This document shows positions 2,935-11,724 of a stretch of DNA of 23,027 bases, piece after piece (the first letter of the stretch is position 1; every line of letters starts with the position of its first letter). The translations under genes were made by a program, and so were the position numbers. The DNA is from a virus, in IMG/VR virus record IMGVR_UViG_3300034198_023098, positions 1 through 23,027 of that record, one strand, 5' to 3'. The notes under the pieces are model-generated. The model was not told where the DNA came from and ran no database searches. It was given only the letters and a program-made list of their open reading frames with translations.

Positions 2935-3054
2935 ACATAACTTTTTAAGGAGTAACCAATGTACCCCCTTGTTAAAAACACCCCTTGTAAATTGTATACA
3001 AGAGGACACACACCCGAAAGGCAAGAGTGCTCAATCCAGGCGGTTTGTGGTAGC

Positions 3055-3071
3055 GAGGGACTCGAACCCTC
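3055..3071 (-). other. tRNA-like T-arm, incomplete tRNA or tRNA relic
   Basis: On the minus strand this reads GAGGG-TTCGAGT-CCCTC, a perfect T stem-loop with the conserved TTCGA. Before it TGCAA and TTGCA could form a long variable arm, and 3100-3116 can form a 5-bp stem with a 7-base loop. CTACCAC after the T stem could pair with GTG(A)GTAG near 3145-3152 with one bulge. The D arm lacks the usual GG, so I do not call a functional tRNA. Confidence 0.4.
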
Positions 3072-3103
3072 TGCAAGCCCACTACACTATGTTTGCAGAC
3101 ATA

Positions 3104-3213
3104 CAAGTCTATTGTACAACCTTTACCCTTCTTGCGGGGATTAACCTACTCACATAGGTAGCCTTTCGACTGCAAGTTTATTATAGTTGTTTTACCCTTC
3201 TTGTGGGGATTAA
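3104..3213. repeat. Two diverged copies of a 69-bp tandem unit
   Basis: Bases 3122-3144 and 3191-3213 match at 22 of 23 positions (TTTACCCTTCTTG, then C or T, then GGGGATTAA). Exactly 69 bases apart as well, 3104-3116 and 3173-3185 match at 10 of 13 (CAAGTCTATTGTA against CAAGTTTATTATA). The whole segment is therefore a duplicated unit, not just a short repeat. The conserved block has a CRISPR-repeat-like look, but the shared 'spacer' sequence argues against a CRISPR array. Confidence 0.65.
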
Positions 3214-3262
3214 ACACGTTACTGCATACGTGTTATGTATTAACATTTTTGTAGTTGCTTGA

Positions 3263-3364
3263 CTACCTTACCATTATAACTATGGTTCCATTAATATCTC
3301 CTTTACCACTTGTATCCATACAGAGGTGGTTCATATCCCAATAGTGTTTAGAGATAAAATACAT
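3263..3364 (-). CDS. Possible 33-codon gene in the structured region
   Basis: ATG at 3364-3362, TAG at 3265-3263. The peptide has a beta-strand-like end (GDINGTIVIMV) and no low-complexity run. A TATGTTTG box lies 40 bases upstream at 3404-3411. The frame also contains an inverted repeat (TGTAT/ATACA within ACCAC/GTGGT), so it could be RNA structure instead. Low confidence. Confidence 0.3.
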   Translation of the reverse strand: MYFISKHYWDMNHLCMDTSGKGDINGTIVIMVR

Positions 3365-3403
3365 ACATACGACTCCTTTCGGGAACGGTCAATATGCAGA
3401 GGT

Positions 3404-3411
3404 CAAACATA
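3404..3411 (-). promoter_or_regulatory. Weak Bacteroidetes-type -7 box
   Basis: Minus-strand TATGTTTG fits TAnnTTTG, but no TTTG is seen at the right distance upstream. If used it would transcribe toward the 33-codon frame and the 69-bp repeats. Confidence 0.25.
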
Positions 3412-3519
3412 GTAAACGTAAAGGTAGATAGATTATTTATGTAAACCTACTCATTTACTACTCCAATACCTAATCTAATAACCAACGTACTTTATTAGGG
3501 ATTACATAAAACAGTTTTT

Positions 3520-3546
3520 CTGAAGGGGACATACGTATCCCTTCAG
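3520..3546. other. Long hairpin in noncoding region
   Basis: CTGAAGGG (3520-3527) pairs with CCCTTCAG (3539-3546); the 11-base interior is itself partly palindromic (ATACGTAT). No T-run follows on either strand, so it is not an ordinary terminator; it may be an operator or part of an RNA. Confidence 0.6.
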
Positions 3547-3610
3547 CAATGTGTACTGATACACCTACTTTTATTTTTACTATTATGTTTACAACTTAGA
3601 TTAACGCCCT

Positions 3611-3839
3611 TACTTATAAATTACTTACAAGGCATTACGCCCAAAACAGCCCACAAAAAAGACTATTTAATAATTCTTTTAACCCTTATTTTAATTTCGT
3701 TTATACATAGCTTCGCCCCCTCGTATTCATTACATAAATAGCTACATAAAGCAAATATCTTTGCCCCGAAAAAATAAACATTTATGTCAAATAACTTCGC
3801 CCCGTTTTACTTATAAATTACTTACAAGGCATTACGCCC
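3611..3839. repeat. Perfect 32-bp direct repeat, two copies
   Basis: Bases 3611-3642 and 3808-3839 are identical: TACTTATAAATTACTTAC, then AAGGCATTACGCCC. They lie 197 bases apart and each ends in the ACGCCC motif. Both copies are preceded by another CGCCC element within 12 bases. Confidence 0.85.
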
Positions 3840-3920
3840 CGACTATTCAAAACATAGTCAATAAAACAGTTTAAGGGTATCCCCTTTGGCTTCGCCCCCC
3901 TCTAATATTACGATATTAAC

Positions 3921-3939
3921 CCCCTACTTTGCATAGGGG
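3921..3939 (-). terminator. Hairpin downstream of the 226-aa gene
   Basis: CCCCTA (3921-3926) and TAGGGG (3934-3939) form a 6-bp stem with a 7-base loop, 23 bases after the stop codon of 3962-4642 on the minus strand. The following bases are A/T-rich but not a T-run, so termination is plausible, not certain. Confidence 0.4.
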
Positions 3940-3961
3940 TAAAGGGGGGTAAAATTACGCC

Positions 3962-4642
3962 CTACTTGTTAGTCGTGTCACTTAAATACTTAGTAATAAA
4001 ATCAACAAAAGCAATAGGCGTGAAAATAGCCGTTTCGCCCCCGTTAAACCTTTCCCGACGTGCAGCATTTATATAGGGTAAAATAGTAGGCAATTGTAAA
4101 GTGTCTAATGTTTCGCCCTTTCTAAATAGCTTCGCAAATTTGCCGTTTTGTTTCATTTTGCGAAGGGCTATTTTGAAGCAATAAGAAGGGCTATATATCT
4201 CGCCCTTTATTTCGCCTTTAGTTTCCTTTTTGGCAATTGTTACATCTTTACTTTTCGCCCCTTCTGTCAGTGCTTCGCTAATCTTGCCCCCTACATTAAT
4301 ATACTTCTTAAAAGTATTGGTTGAAGTGTCCAAAAAATAATCATTGCCCCCTACAAACTTAATAGGTTCAACCCCTTCTTTTCTAAGTAGTAACCCCGTT
4401 TGCGTTTCTGTTTCAGTGGTTACTAGCTTGTTTCCTTCTATATTAGTAACTTTACTTTTAACCACTTCTTTTACTAAGTTGTAGCCCTCGAACCCATCTA
4501 CCTTTAAACCTGTTTCCCTTTCTATGGTTTCAGTCTCAATGATAGGGTAGCGACTAAGTAGTGTTTCAATACTAACCACTTCTTTTACTTGTTTTGTAGC
4601 TTCTTTACTTACTTCTTTTACTACATTCTTTACTTCATTCAT
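3962..4642 (-). CDS. Unknown 226-aa protein embedded in motif array
   Basis: Unrecognised. The N-terminal 25 residues are an amphipathic Lys/Glu/Val helix (NEVKNVVKEVSKEATKQVKE). Residues 35-140 are Thr/Glu/Lys-rich and strand-like, and the C-terminal 80 are helical and basic (FKIALRKMKQNGKFAKLFRKG), which could contact DNA. It stands alone in the hairpin-rich region with its own structured leader and likely promoter. Its coding strand carries repeated GGGCGAA, often read as Gly-Glu but in other frames too. Possible roles are an origin- or array-binding protein or a virion-unrelated early factor; neither is shown. Confidence 0.7.
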   Translation of the reverse strand: MNEVKNVVKEVSKEATKQVKEVVSIETLLSRYPIIETETIERETGLKVDGFEGYNLVKEVVKSKVTNIEGNKLVTTETETQTGLLLRKEGVEPIKFVGGNDYFLDTSTNTFKKYINVGGKISEALTEGAKSKDVTIAKKETKGEIKGEIYSPSYCFKIALRKMKQNGKFAKLFRKGETLDTLQLPTILPYINAARRERFNGGETAIFTPIAFVDFITKYLSDTTNK

Positions 4643-4779
4643 AACTTTTAATTTGCGGCTATTATAGCCTTTTAATTAATACCATACTTTAATTGTAAAA
4701 GTATGGGCAATACTTTACCCGTCACCCCTTAAGGGTGTTTTTAGTGGGTAATGGTATGGCATGGCGAAGATAGGGGTTG
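4643..4779 (-). promoter_or_regulatory. Highly structured 5' leader of the 226-aa gene
   Basis: Between the predicted transcription start (about 4773) and the ATG lie three hairpins. CACCC (4723-4727) pairs with GGGTG (4733-4737), nested inside TTACCC (4715-4720) with GGGTAA (4746-4751). CCATACTTT (4682-4690) pairs with AAAGTATGG (4698-4706), 9 bp. GGCTAT (4657-4662) pairs with ATAGCC (4664-4669). On the plus strand the CACCC hairpin is followed by TTTTT, so it could end a plus-strand transcript. Confidence 0.55.
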
Positions 4780-4787
4780 CAAAGTTA
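4780..4787 (-). promoter_or_regulatory. Promoter -7 box for the 226-aa gene
   Basis: Minus-strand TAACTTTG matches TAnnTTTG. The region upstream has a run of nine A on the minus strand (plus-strand T at 4798-4806); the nearest TTG is 28 bases away, further than usual, so the -33 element is weak. Confidence 0.45.
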
Positions 4788-4864
4788 CTAGACAAACTTT
4801 TTTTTTGCTTTTTTCCAATATCGTAAATTTCAATCGTTTTCGTTTTATTTTTTTCGTAAAAAAC

Positions 4865-4910
4865 CTGGATTTTTCGTAACTAGCGAAAAAATTTCGCTGG
4901 AGGAATCCAG
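4865..4910. repeat. Nested inverted repeat (hairpin within hairpin)
   Basis: Outer arms CTGGATT (4865-4871) and AATCCAG (4904-4910), 7 bp; inner arms AGCGAAA (4882-4888) and TTTCGCT (4892-4898), 7 bp. The two stems would stack with short internal strands. No T-run follows on either strand. Confidence 0.75.
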
Positions 4911-5079
4911 CAGATTGCCTCTCTAACCCCACCCCAAATCCCCCAAATCTAAAAAAATATATAAATATATAATTATATAAAATAACCCTAAGATCTGCTC
5001 TGGCTGCCCTTCCCCCTGGACCTAAGGTTAAACCCTTCTACCCTAACTACCGGCCAAGATACCCTCACTTCACTATACT

Positions 5080-5105
5080 AAACAACAAAGGGACAACTAT
5101 GTCCC
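5080..5105 (-). terminator. Intrinsic terminator ending the minus-strand block
   Basis: GGGACA (5090-5095) and TGTCCC (5100-5105) form a 6-bp G/C-rich stem with a 4-base loop; on the minus strand the stem is followed by TTTGTTGTT. It lies 45 bases after the stop of the 5150-5368 gene, the last gene of the block, so it fits as the operon terminator. Confidence 0.7.
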
Positions 5106-5149
5106 CCTGTTAAACTCCTTCACCCCTGACTAGCCTATTTAACCTCTTG

Positions 5150-5368
5150 TTAATTCGGGGTATCCTCACCTTTAAAAAACTTACCGTTTATGTATAGGTC
5201 ATAGTCTTTTATTTCTTGCATTCCTTCGTACTCAATCACCTGGACTTCGTATTCACCCAGTTTATAATTCCTAGTCTTTATACTCCCTACTGACCAACTT
5301 TGTACATTCATTTCTGTATGTGGTAAATTGTTTAGCATTAGATGTGTCAATAATACCCTGTTTTTCAT
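5150..5368 (-). CDS. Hypothetical protein (72 aa)
   Basis: Unrecognised. The second half is strand-rich with a turn typical of a small beta sheet (NYKLGEYEVQVIEYEG and DYDLYINGKFFKGED). Its ATG overlaps the stop codon of the 70-aa gene by one base, indicating translational coupling. It is the last gene before the intrinsic terminator at 5080-5105. Confidence 0.7.
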   Translation of the reverse strand: MKNRVLLTHLMLNNLPHTEMNVQSWSVGSIKTRNYKLGEYEVQVIEYEGMQEIKDYDLYINGKFFKGEDTPN

Positions 5369-5854: not shown

Positions 5855-6718
5855 TTACTTGATGTTGAGAATCATTCCTGATCCACCACCTGTTACTGTA
5901 GGTAATACTCCATTCCAGCGTTGTGCTTTTACAAGCTCAATGTATTGAGGTGATTGACGTAATGCTTCTTGTTTAACTGTGATTTCTTTAGCTTCTGCTA
6001 AGGCTTCAATCACTCTTGATGCACTGTCACCTCTTGCTTTTGCTATACGCTTATTAGCTTCAGCTATACTGCTTTGTAGTTCTGTTACAGCACGTTCAGC
6101 ATCTTGCTTTGCTTGTATCTTAGAAGCGATAGACTTAGCCAGATTAGGGTCTGTAGGTGTAGGTTGCTTTAGTACACTGAACATAAGTGTGATACCTTGT
6201 GGTTCTAATTGTTTATTCAGTAGGTCATTTACAGCATGCTCATAAGCCGGTAGGTTTATTAGTATACTATCTACAGTGATAGTACCGGATACATCCTGCA
6301 TAGCTCTTCTTACTGTGTTTCTTAGAAACCCATTAGTAATGGTCTTTAGGTTGTCTGTTTTATATTTCAGGTATAGCTTAGAGGCTTTATTGGGTATAAT
6401 CTGATAGTTAACACCTACATCCATCTTAAAGCCGGCACCTCCGCTACATGCTACTGTGATTGCTTCATCAGTTGGGCTACCTTCTGTTTCACTTTCAGTC
6501 CATACTACGTGTTCCTGTGTTGTTGGTAACGTTACGATGTAACTACCACCTGGCATGTAAAACTGCCAACCTGTTAATAGTGGTAAACTATCTATGCCTC
6601 TATAATCACCGGCATTGTCAATTCGAAATCCTACTTCAGTTGGAGATATTCTCGTCATACAACTGGTTAAACTACTCATTAGCATAATGAATGCTAGAAA
6701 ACTTACGATGTTTTTCAT
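5855..6718 (-). CDS. SPFH / prohibitin-like lipoprotein (287 aa)
   Basis: SPFH-domain proteins (prohibitin, stomatin, HflK/HflC) form ring or cage assemblies at membranes and often control membrane proteases. Here residues 1-20 are a lipoprotein signal ending L-T-S-C (Cys20), so the protein would be lipid-anchored on the periplasmic side rather than spanning the membrane. Residues about 25-200 fit the SPFH fold, 205-255 are an Ala/Lys/Glu coiled coil (SKIQAKQDAERAVTELQSS and on), and the end has the WNGVLP...GGGSG pattern common at prohibitin-like C-termini. No Bacteroidetes surface-export signal is seen after Cys20. It stands upstream of the small trio and downstream of two small membrane proteins, suggesting an envelope-acting module. 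The family call is strong; the role in the phage (membrane-protease control, superinfection exclusion) is inferred. Confidence 0.85.
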   Translation of the reverse strand: MKNIVSFLAFIMLMSSLTSCMTRISPTEVGFRIDNAGDYRGIDSLPLLTGWQFYMPGGSYIVTLPTTQEHVVWTESETEGSPTDEAITVACSGGAGFKMDVGVNYQIIPNKASKLYLKYKTDNLKTITNGFLRNTVRRAMQDVSGTITVDSILINLPAYEHAVNDLLNKQLEPQGITLMFSVLKQPTPTDPNLAKSIASKIQAKQDAERAVTELQSSIAEANKRIAKARGDSASRVIEALAEAKEITVKQEALRQSPQYIELVKAQRWNGVLPTVTGGGSGMILNIK

Positions 6719-10566: not shown

Positions 10567-11049
10567 CTATTTTGTTAAATATTTCTGACCTAATTCTTTT
10601 ATTACTTCAATAGCTCTTTCAGAGCTTATCTCAAACCCTTCTCTGCGCGGAGATACACGGGTTCCGCGATCTTCTAAGTACTGGTGTACTTCTTTCTCTA
10701 GCATGAATGCATTTCCAACTTTCAGACTATATACAGGATACCAAGGTGTGATACTACTAGTCTGTGAAGATAATTCCCTAGCACGTTGTGTGACACTAGT
10801 TGTGGTTGCTCCCACTTTAACCGTATTTGGGATTGAGGGGTTCACCATCACATACACCCATTGGGGTTTTAATACTGAATTGGTTGGATCTGTAAAACTT
10901 TCTCCAAAATATGTGACATTCTCCCAAGGGTGTGGGTCTGTCTCTGTTAGAGTGAAGGCTACTGCACAATCCATACTATATCTGAAATCCTTCTCAGGAT
11001 TCAGCAGCCGGTAATTCTTTGACTCTTCGTGGGTGATTCTTTTTATCAT
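10567..11049 (-). CDS. T5orf172 / GIY-YIG-like domain protein (160 aa)
   Basis: Residues about 62-155 match the T5orf172 family, a GIY-YIG-related nuclease fold: WVYVMVNPSIPNTVKVGATT (the YV...VKVG pair replacing GIY-YIG), then QRARELSSQTSSITPWYPVY, a VHQYL helix with His, and REGFEISSERAIEVI. Family members are DNA-binding or nuclease modules in phages. The first 60 residues are a separate segment without known match. It has its own well-formed promoter at 11066-11097, and its ATG lies about ten bases after the predicted transcription start. Whether it still cuts DNA is not decided by sequence alone. Confidence 0.78.
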   Translation of the reverse strand: MIKRITHEESKNYRLLNPEKDFRYSMDCAVAFTLTETDPHPWENVTYFGESFTDPTNSVLKPQWVYVMVNPSIPNTVKVGATTTSVTQRARELSSQTSSITPWYPVYSLKVGNAFMLEKEVHQYLEDRGTRVSPRREGFEISSERAIEVIKELGQKYLTK

Positions 11050-11097: not shown

Positions 11098-11724
11098 ATT
11101 TATTTTTTCATCCGAGTCTGTATCTTCAAATAACAGCTCAAAGTTACCTAGTAACATCTGCCTATACCTCCAGGCTAACTTCCTGAATATCCTATCCTTC
11201 ACCTTACTATATACATCATTCTTATGTATGAATGGTGCCTCTTTAGTTATGGTACAGGTAAGATTACCTTCCTCATCTCTTATAGCCTCTATGAGACCTG
11301 CGTATTTTGGTACCTCAGAGCTTAATAGCAGCCCTCTGGGCGCACAGTAATAGAATTTGTTAGGGATTATCTCCCAGGAGGTTCCTTCGAGCAATAGCTT
11401 ATGTTTCTTAGGTTTCCCAGTGATATCCTCAGCAAAGTCACTCCGGCTCACCTTCACCTCAATCTCACCTAGGTAACCACTATCGAATAGGGTTACGAAG
11501 TCGTTTTCAAACTTGTCGTTAAACACATAACAATTATTTATCTGCACTTTATGATGCTGGAAGTAATTAGCTAAAGCCAATACCACCTCTTTAGTACCTA
11601 TATCCCCTTTCTTACCGCTTTTTATCCTCTGTTGGATAGATTGCTTCACTCTAGGCCTATACTGGCTAGAATCGTCCGGTTTCGGCTCTTTTACTAATTT
11701 ACTGAAATCTATTAGTGAATTCAT
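11080..11724 (-). CDS. MmcB / PD-(D/E)XK-like nuclease-fold protein (214 aa)
   Basis: Residues about 40-150 resemble the MmcB family, a PD-(D/E)XK nuclease fold linked to DNA repair. Asp81 (TLFDSGYLGE) and Glu89-Val-Lys91 in GEIEVKVSRSDFAED provide the D...ExK pattern, followed by KKHKLLL, a FYYCAPRGLL strand and SEVPKYAGLI, the usual order in this family. The N-terminal 40 residues are basic and flexible and the C-terminus is acidic (FEDTDSDEKINFEEVE). It lies between the helix-turn-helix gene and the T5orf172 gene, so a DNA-processing role in early infection is likely; the substrate is unknown. Confidence 0.72.
   Translation of the reverse strand: MNSLIDFSKLVKEPKPDDSSQYRPRVKQSIQQRIKSGKKGDIGTKEVVLALANYFQHHKVQINNCYVFNDKFENDFVTLFDSGYLGEIEVKVSRSDFAEDITGKPKKHKLLLEGTSWEIIPNKFYYCAPRGLLLSSEVPKYAGLIEAIRDEEGNLTCTITKEAPFIHKNDVYSKVKDRIFRKLAWRYRQMLLGNFELLFEDTDSDEKINFEEVE

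Follow-up and report, generated by a model that had tools for sequence, protein, structure and literature searches.

A one-strand array of short words across a fast-diverging phage gene and its structured 3′ tail, tentatively read as recognition sites in RNA

The window analyzed here is an entire IMG/VR record of 23,027 bases, and we refer to its phage as W. Relatives were found through the baseplate protein; the three that matter most are G001 and G002, which share the gene order of W, and G005, which is more distant. The features of the locus are given below in the order of the minus strand, on which its gene lies.

5083..5112, minus strand: terminator-like hairpin of 13 pairs, upstream of the leader, between the locus and the gene at 5150-5368
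4643..5130, minus strand: noncoding leader preceding the gene, conserved at about 85% identity along its length in G001 and G002
4765..4796, minus strand: predicted Bacteroidota-type promoter, TTTG-N20-TATCTTCG, 122 nt before the ATG
3962..4642, minus strand: 226-aa orphan gene that diverges fast among relatives
4346..4350, minus strand: outlying variant word GGGGC (in GTAGGGGGCAA)
4286..4290, minus strand: outlying variant word GGGGC (in GTAGGGGGCAA)
3605..4260, minus strand: array of 11 GGGCG words (CGCCC on the plus strand) with the core GGGGCGAA, evenly spaced at a mean of 65 nt
3807..3839, plus strand: 33-bp exact direct repeat, copy 2, with one word inside
3763..3767, minus strand: variant word GGGGC (in CGGGGCAAAG)
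3610..3642, plus strand: 33-bp exact direct repeat, copy 1, with one word inside
3276..3961, minus strand: structured noncoding 3′ tail, holding the downstream half of the array
3891..3949, minus strand: three-way junction RNA of 20 pairs, 12 nt past the stop codon, covarying in G001 and G002
3042..3275, minus strand: tRNA-like domain with an acceptor stem, a long closing helix, a T arm (GAGGG-TTCGAGT-CCCTC) and an insert
2981..3005, minus strand: intrinsic terminator (CCTCTTGTA/TACAAGGGG, then TGTTTTT), its stem compensated in G002

A preliminary description of this DNA had reported a dense one-strand array of TTCGCCC/ACGCCC motifs, and the array is real. CGCCC occurs 13 times on the two strands of the window, and 11 copies lie on the plus strand within 3605-4260 (at 3605, 3638, 3714, 3798, 3835, 3893, 3958, 4036, 4114, 4201 and 4256). 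The description had noticed about two copies elsewhere, and there are exactly two, at 11338 (minus) and 22855 (plus). Its figure of at least 12 copies needs adjusting, as exact copies number 11 and the total reaches 14 sites if the minus-strand variant GGGGC is included, and its spacing of 12-78 bases is replaced by a measured range of 33-87. The comparison with a shuffled background that it proposed bears out the excess: 100 dinucleotide shuffles of the window gave a mean of 6.07 CGCCC and a maximum of 10, against the 13 observed. The 226-aa gene is transcribed from the other direction, on the minus strand, so that the word is best given in that sense, as GGGGCGAA(G). GGGCGA occurs 7 times on this strand within 3276-4584, against 0.21 expected from dinucleotide shuffles, and its reverse complement does not occur; the locus contains 7/7 GGGCGA and 5/5 GGGGCGAA of the 23-kb fragment. 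When the window was scanned in sliding steps, the array region had the strongest word by far, with a z of about 40 that depends on a very small expected value. The heptamer GCGAAGC is also overrepresented on the minus strand of 3710-4280 (4 versus 0.03 expected); it is an unusually stable DNA mini-hairpin.

The 11 sites are spaced more evenly than at random (mean gap 65, CV 0.29, P=0.00045). The same is true of the 14 sites that include GGGGC (P=0.00035), and evenness falls to P=0.03 when the shorter GCGAA is also included. Aligned on the core, the 14 sites have an identity of 0.77 over 8 core columns, and both flanks are at background (0.29 versus 0.28 expected). The 33-bp exact repeat holds just one pair of word copies. 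A CRISPR or tandem-repeat array was considered and rejected because identity is limited to 8-9 nt, the flanks are at background and there is only the one 33-bp pair.

The preliminary description had interpreted the array as binding sites or as an origin or packaging signal, and only the first part of this interpretation is supported. Even spacing, a short core without flank similarity, one-strandedness and an excess over codon usage all favor an array of binding or recognition sites. An origin or packaging signal is disfavored by the lack of 10.5-bp phasing, by the lack of a skew turn at the array and by surrounding evidence that points to RNA. If the words were DNA iterons of a replication origin, lying in or behind the gene of an initiator whose specificity is private to each phage, we would expect what is indeed seen in part, namely direct repeats that lie within an orphan gene and next to it, a gene and sites that diverge fast together, and an AT-rich stretch in the leader. 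However, the array has no helical phasing at 10.5 bp (R 0.02; the best of 11 periods tried was 11.0 bp, p about 0.04), and its 8-nt cores are 33-87 apart. The GC-skew check suggested earlier places the cumulative minimum near 13 kb, away from the array, no initiator-like domain was found, and the same region is occupied by a terminator, a tRNA-like domain and RNA structure that covaries, so that we regard an iteron origin as improbable. A DNA packaging or partition site would likewise explain dense direct repeats restricted to one place in the window, but relatives with 82-97% identity in the surrounding aligned blocks do not have the word, the context is one of coding and RNA, and no partition gene was found among the window proteins scanned. 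This last possibility we consider very improbable indeed.

Within the gene, GGGCG occurs four times in two frames, in agreement with the earlier statement that the copies fall in more than one reading frame. Synonymous recoding with the codon usage of the genome gives 0.24 expected copies and reached four in 0/1000 trials, and when the synonymous codons of the gene itself are permuted, 1.21 copies are expected (P=0.017). The gene is shifted in its glycine codons: 15/17 are GGC/GGG and 2 are GGT/GGA, versus 74/317 GGC/GGG and 243 GGT/GGA among the other genes counted in the window (Fisher P=8e-8). Searches for relatives of the 226-aa protein in IMG/VR (peptide patterns), in phage records (tblastn) and in the eight relative records returned none; it has no PHROGs family and no Pfam match at E<=1, and nothing credible was found in the PDB, where the sole match was a nanobody (E 0.6). 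For the W and G002 proteins, single-sequence modeling reached a mean pLDDT of 36, too low for the models to be usable.

The unusual glycine codons could mean that the segment 3605-4355 was imported horizontally from a donor rich in the word, and it fits this idea that the interior of the locus does not align with close relatives. Yet the G+C of the region (0.36) equals that of the window, the protein has a distant relative at the equivalent position of G001 (pairwise E 3e-5, from a four-protein search that applied no composition correction), the junction is shared and donor searches found no donor, all of which makes import a poor prospect. In the donor search, a three-word pattern run over genome contigs gave at least 119 stretches, of which 13 of the listed loci were inspected by script and the contexts of three displayed. 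The contexts viewed were tandem or coding repeats, and the array-donor candidates were rejected; the remaining stretches, many with CRISPR-like spacing, are taken as unrelated. The 19-nt core of the 33-bp repeat occurs in 0 IMG/VR contigs. Dense TTCGCCCC arrays are present in L114 and L141 (uncultured Lachnospiraceae contigs), with recurring 26- and 48-base spacings in low-G+C DNA, and as far as seen these are unrelated to the W locus.

A conserved frame surrounds a diverged interior at this locus. G001 and G002 have 82-97% DNA identity to W in aligned blocks in the left half of the window, but inside these conserved flanks their gene and tail are largely unalignable with W, and in window 3275-4584 blastn aligns just a 51-bp piece, in G001. 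The leader is close to identical in G001 and G002 as far as the start codon, where similarity collapses. In G005 the leader, gene and tRNA-like end are kept in order, and the leader is partly recognizable. Pattern searches with the leader, the leader hairpin and the tail returned G001, G002 and G005 again and nothing further, a search with the 214-aa neighbor protein found the same three phages only, and neither the locus (by blastn) nor the G005 protein had a match in phage records. Elsewhere in the window, an SPFH/Band 7 lipoprotein gene (5855-6718, minus) is 89% identical to one in G008 and was not found in G001 or G002, and it appears to be a mosaic insertion. A T5orf172-domain protein (10567-11049, minus), GIY-YIG-like in type, is 81% identical in G005.

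The preliminary description had held that absence of the motif from homologous regions of close relatives would count against it, and this tells against it in part, because GGGGCGAA occurs in 0/8 relative records. Other words take its place to differing degrees. In G005 the strongest window of 54 is this very locus (GTATGTGT, 14 versus 0.7), and its tail contains GTGTAT 10 times versus 0.97 expected with 0 in reverse, GTGTATG not being confined to the locus (5/13 within it). In G002, AAGGCAGC and GCAGC mark the second-highest place in the genome; GCAGC occurs 10 times in the gene versus 3.7, to which the tandem N-terminal repeats of this gene contribute, and once in the tail. The G001 words are weak. 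Same-strand 8-mer repetition in the tail has z values of 9.0 in W, 8.8 in G005, 3.9 in G002 and 0.8 in G001, and the tail words of G001 and G002 are weak and on both strands. Within their own genomes the z of 16 reached by G002 and G005 is high, but it is not exceptional in general, as the controls G003 and G008 reach 22 and 15 at other places. G005 thus clearly carries a tail word of its own, G002 carries a gene word, and G001 has little of either.

The predicted promoter upstream of the gene follows the Bacteroidota consensus, which the excerpt of PMC7366714 gives as TTTG near -33 and TAnnTTTG at -7. The relatives have TTTG-N19/20-TATCTTTG, exact in G001, G002 and G005, and W differs from it by one change. 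Counts of the exact pattern are 3, 4, 7 and 3 in the four records versus 2, 0, 1 and 1 in reversed controls, which falls short of proof. The leader also carries several terminator-like hairpins and a G-rich stretch, GATTTGGGGGATTTGGGGTGGGG (minus strand), beside an AT-rich tract. In G005, a strong terminator-like hairpin lies between gene and tail, which would allow the two to be separate RNAs in that phage.

Just past the stop codon (7-12 nt in W, G001 and G002), the tail forms a three-way junction with an outer stem of 8 pairs, a linker of 2, a hairpin of 6 pairs, a linker of 2 and a second hairpin of 6 pairs. All three sequences form 20/20 pairs. Pairs changed on both sides number 5 between W and G001, 8 between W and G002 and 7 between G001 and G002, and pairs changed on one side number 0, 1 and 1, respectively. 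The junction was drawn from these three sequences before searching, and therefore the evidence lies in its rarity and compensation and not in its fit. It occurs once in each of the three genomes, and with slightly wider loops the pattern had 4 matches in 2.10 Mb searched on both strands, namely W, G001, G002 and L078, the last of which we take as chance. The three-way junction is missing from G005, where the terminator-like hairpin follows the gene in its place. Beyond the junction, compensated helices are also seen in the comparison of W with G005 and of G001 with G002, all RNA covariation here being based on n = 2 to 4 sequences.

In W, G001 and G002 the 3′ end takes on a tRNA-like fold, with an insert that carries a hairpin and an AATCCCC..GAAGGG module. 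The domain with its long insert is located at 3042-3275 (minus) in the window, L086 7004-7176 (minus), L092 1893-2126 (plus) and L111 12766-12949 (plus). The TTAATCCCC.CAAGAAGGGTAAA module is present twice in W and G002, and G001 lacks the second copy. A covariance model of the domain picks out 4 of 96 sources at E<1e-29, these being the same four phages from which it was built, and the next best value is 0.06. In the next-best matches, L068 and L033, the acceptor and T arm alone aligned, and they resemble ordinary tRNAs. RNAalifold finds 6/37 pairs changed on both sides, and in its alignment G005 breaks several pairs of both the closing helix and the hairpin, which makes the tRNA-like fold less certain than the junction. 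ARAGORN and Rfam named no tRNA-like domain in W, G001 or G002. ARAGORN did call a tmRNA in G008 (L098 5659-6103, minus), a virus contig in which the SPFH/Band 7 gene of the window is also found.

The words of each gene may be linked to the junction of the same phage. After codon 30, the W gene contains 29 5-mers of its own junction 3′ arm versus 14.7 expected, a count reached in 0/300; the G001 gene contains 16 of its own 5′ arm versus 7.3 (P=0.003), and the G002 gene 21 of its own 5′ arm versus 13.1 (P=0.02). With 6-mers the W (0/300) and G001 (P=0.027) signals hold and that of G002 does not (P=0.27). Pairings of arms and genes across phages are mostly at expectation, with the exceptions of the W 5′ arm in the G001 gene (12 versus 5.0, P=0.007) and in the G002 gene (P=0.043). 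Because the likeness was noticed before testing, and in three phages only, the link between words and fold counts as a lead and is best called possible. Single-stranded RNA sites were rejected, since in predicted folds the words are no more unpaired than other bases in W (0.35 versus 0.47) or G005 (0.25 versus 0.44).

Neutral self-similarity is a serious rival to recognition, in which fast turnover by template switching, micro-duplication and drift would build up short words that nothing recognizes. Among 154 ORFs, the three syntenic genes take ranks 1-3 for 6-mers that recur across frames beyond synonymous recoding, the window holds a 33-bp exact duplication, G002 has tandem N-terminal repeats, and the words differ among relatives. 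However, that ranking owes much to the N-terminal repeats; without the first 45 codons the excess drops to z 2.5 in the G001 gene and 1.5 in the G002 gene, and the G005 gene has none (z 1.5). A cross-frame excess was accordingly rejected as a general property, being largely dependent on these repeats. Furthermore, only the 8-nt core is common to the copies, the spacing is too even, and the W and G005 words are one-stranded. We judge neutral turnover unlikely on balance, yet it deserves weight.

The reading that we prefer, and hold tentatively at somewhat short of even confidence, is that the array is a set of repeated recognition sites in a rapidly diverging RNA locus with a putative co-evolving partner. 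The locus would be a single minus-strand transcription unit, with the promoter near 4780, the 226-aa gene, the 3′ RNA, the tRNA-like domain and the terminator at ~2981. The GGGGCGAA words would act in this RNA as evenly spaced sites recognized by a partner that changes along with them, giving each phage a private code. The partner may be a protein, most obviously the 226-aa product, or alternatively the words may pair with one arm of the three-way junction. Recognition in RNA is suggested by the strand bias, confinement to the locus, even spacing, background flanks and codon-usage excess of the gene copies, by conserved flanks around an interior that is largely unalignable in G001 and G002, by the junction, tRNA-like domain, promoter and terminator, by the different one-strand word of G005 in the same place and by words that match their own junction arm. 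Against it stand the absence of GGGGCGAA from all eight relatives, the weak words of G001 and G002, the G005 gene without excess, words that are not more accessible, the G005 gene-tail hairpin and the W 5′ arm scoring in the G001 gene.

A bolder version, which we think rather unlikely, is a self-recognizing particle in which the messenger's fast-evolving protein, the folded 3′ RNA and the tRNA-like end would form one unit. The private words would be an identity code copied from one arm of a junction stem and would pair with the junction or compete for it, and protein, words and stems would change together in each lineage while the fold is kept. If true, such turnover with a kept fold would fit discrimination between own and foreign phage RNA or escape from RNA-directed defense.

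Among the titles and abstract starts listed for initiator iterons, for tmRNA-like RNAs of phages and for related phage RNAs, we found no description of this locus, and Rfam has 0 matches in the window at the gathering threshold. Iteron origins, such as those of plasmid Rep and lambda O, have direct repeats within or next to a gene that evolves fast, and W differs from them by its short core, its RNA context and direct repeats that are neither phased (R 0.02 at 10.5 bp) nor next to a recognizable initiator domain. In Cluster A mycobacteriophages, according to the excerpt of PMC6550527, stoperators are short, asymmetric sites that face one way with respect to transcription; they are genome-wide and DNA-bound, and their consensus and the repressor diverge together between phages. 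The W words are likewise short, asymmetric and in one orientation relative to predicted transcription, but they are confined to one locus (7/7 GGGCGA) and tied to structured RNA, and dispersed oriented sites were not found within the 23-kb fragment. With tmRNA, the 3′ end of W shares an acceptor stem and a tRNA-type T arm that close a long insert with helices. The tmRNA layout has a D-loop stretch between acceptor and closing helix, whereas W has only 2 nt there, and neither ARAGORN nor Rfam called a tmRNA in W, G001 or G002.

There is also a likeness to GOLLD and ROOL, large ornate phage RNAs; in GOLLD, as the excerpt of PMC12286853 describes it, the 3′ part is conserved, the 5′ part less so, and tRNAs are sometimes inside. 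Like these, W carries a phage-borne noncoding RNA of several hundred nt with many helices, the junction and further ones being compensated between relatives (n = 2 to 4 sequences). GOLLD and ROOL are not among the Rfam matches up to E 10 at the W, G001 and G002 loci, and the W RNA differs in that it trails an orphan gene, ends in a tRNA-like domain and carries a phage-specific word array. GOLLD and ROOL have a known structure and no known function, and the W locus is another candidate large phage RNA, this one associated with a gene, promoter, terminator and tRNA-like end. Its sequence is replaced almost completely, with the fold kept, between phages whose neighboring DNA is ~90% identical, and its phage-private word array would offer a concrete, testable handle on what large phage RNAs recognize.
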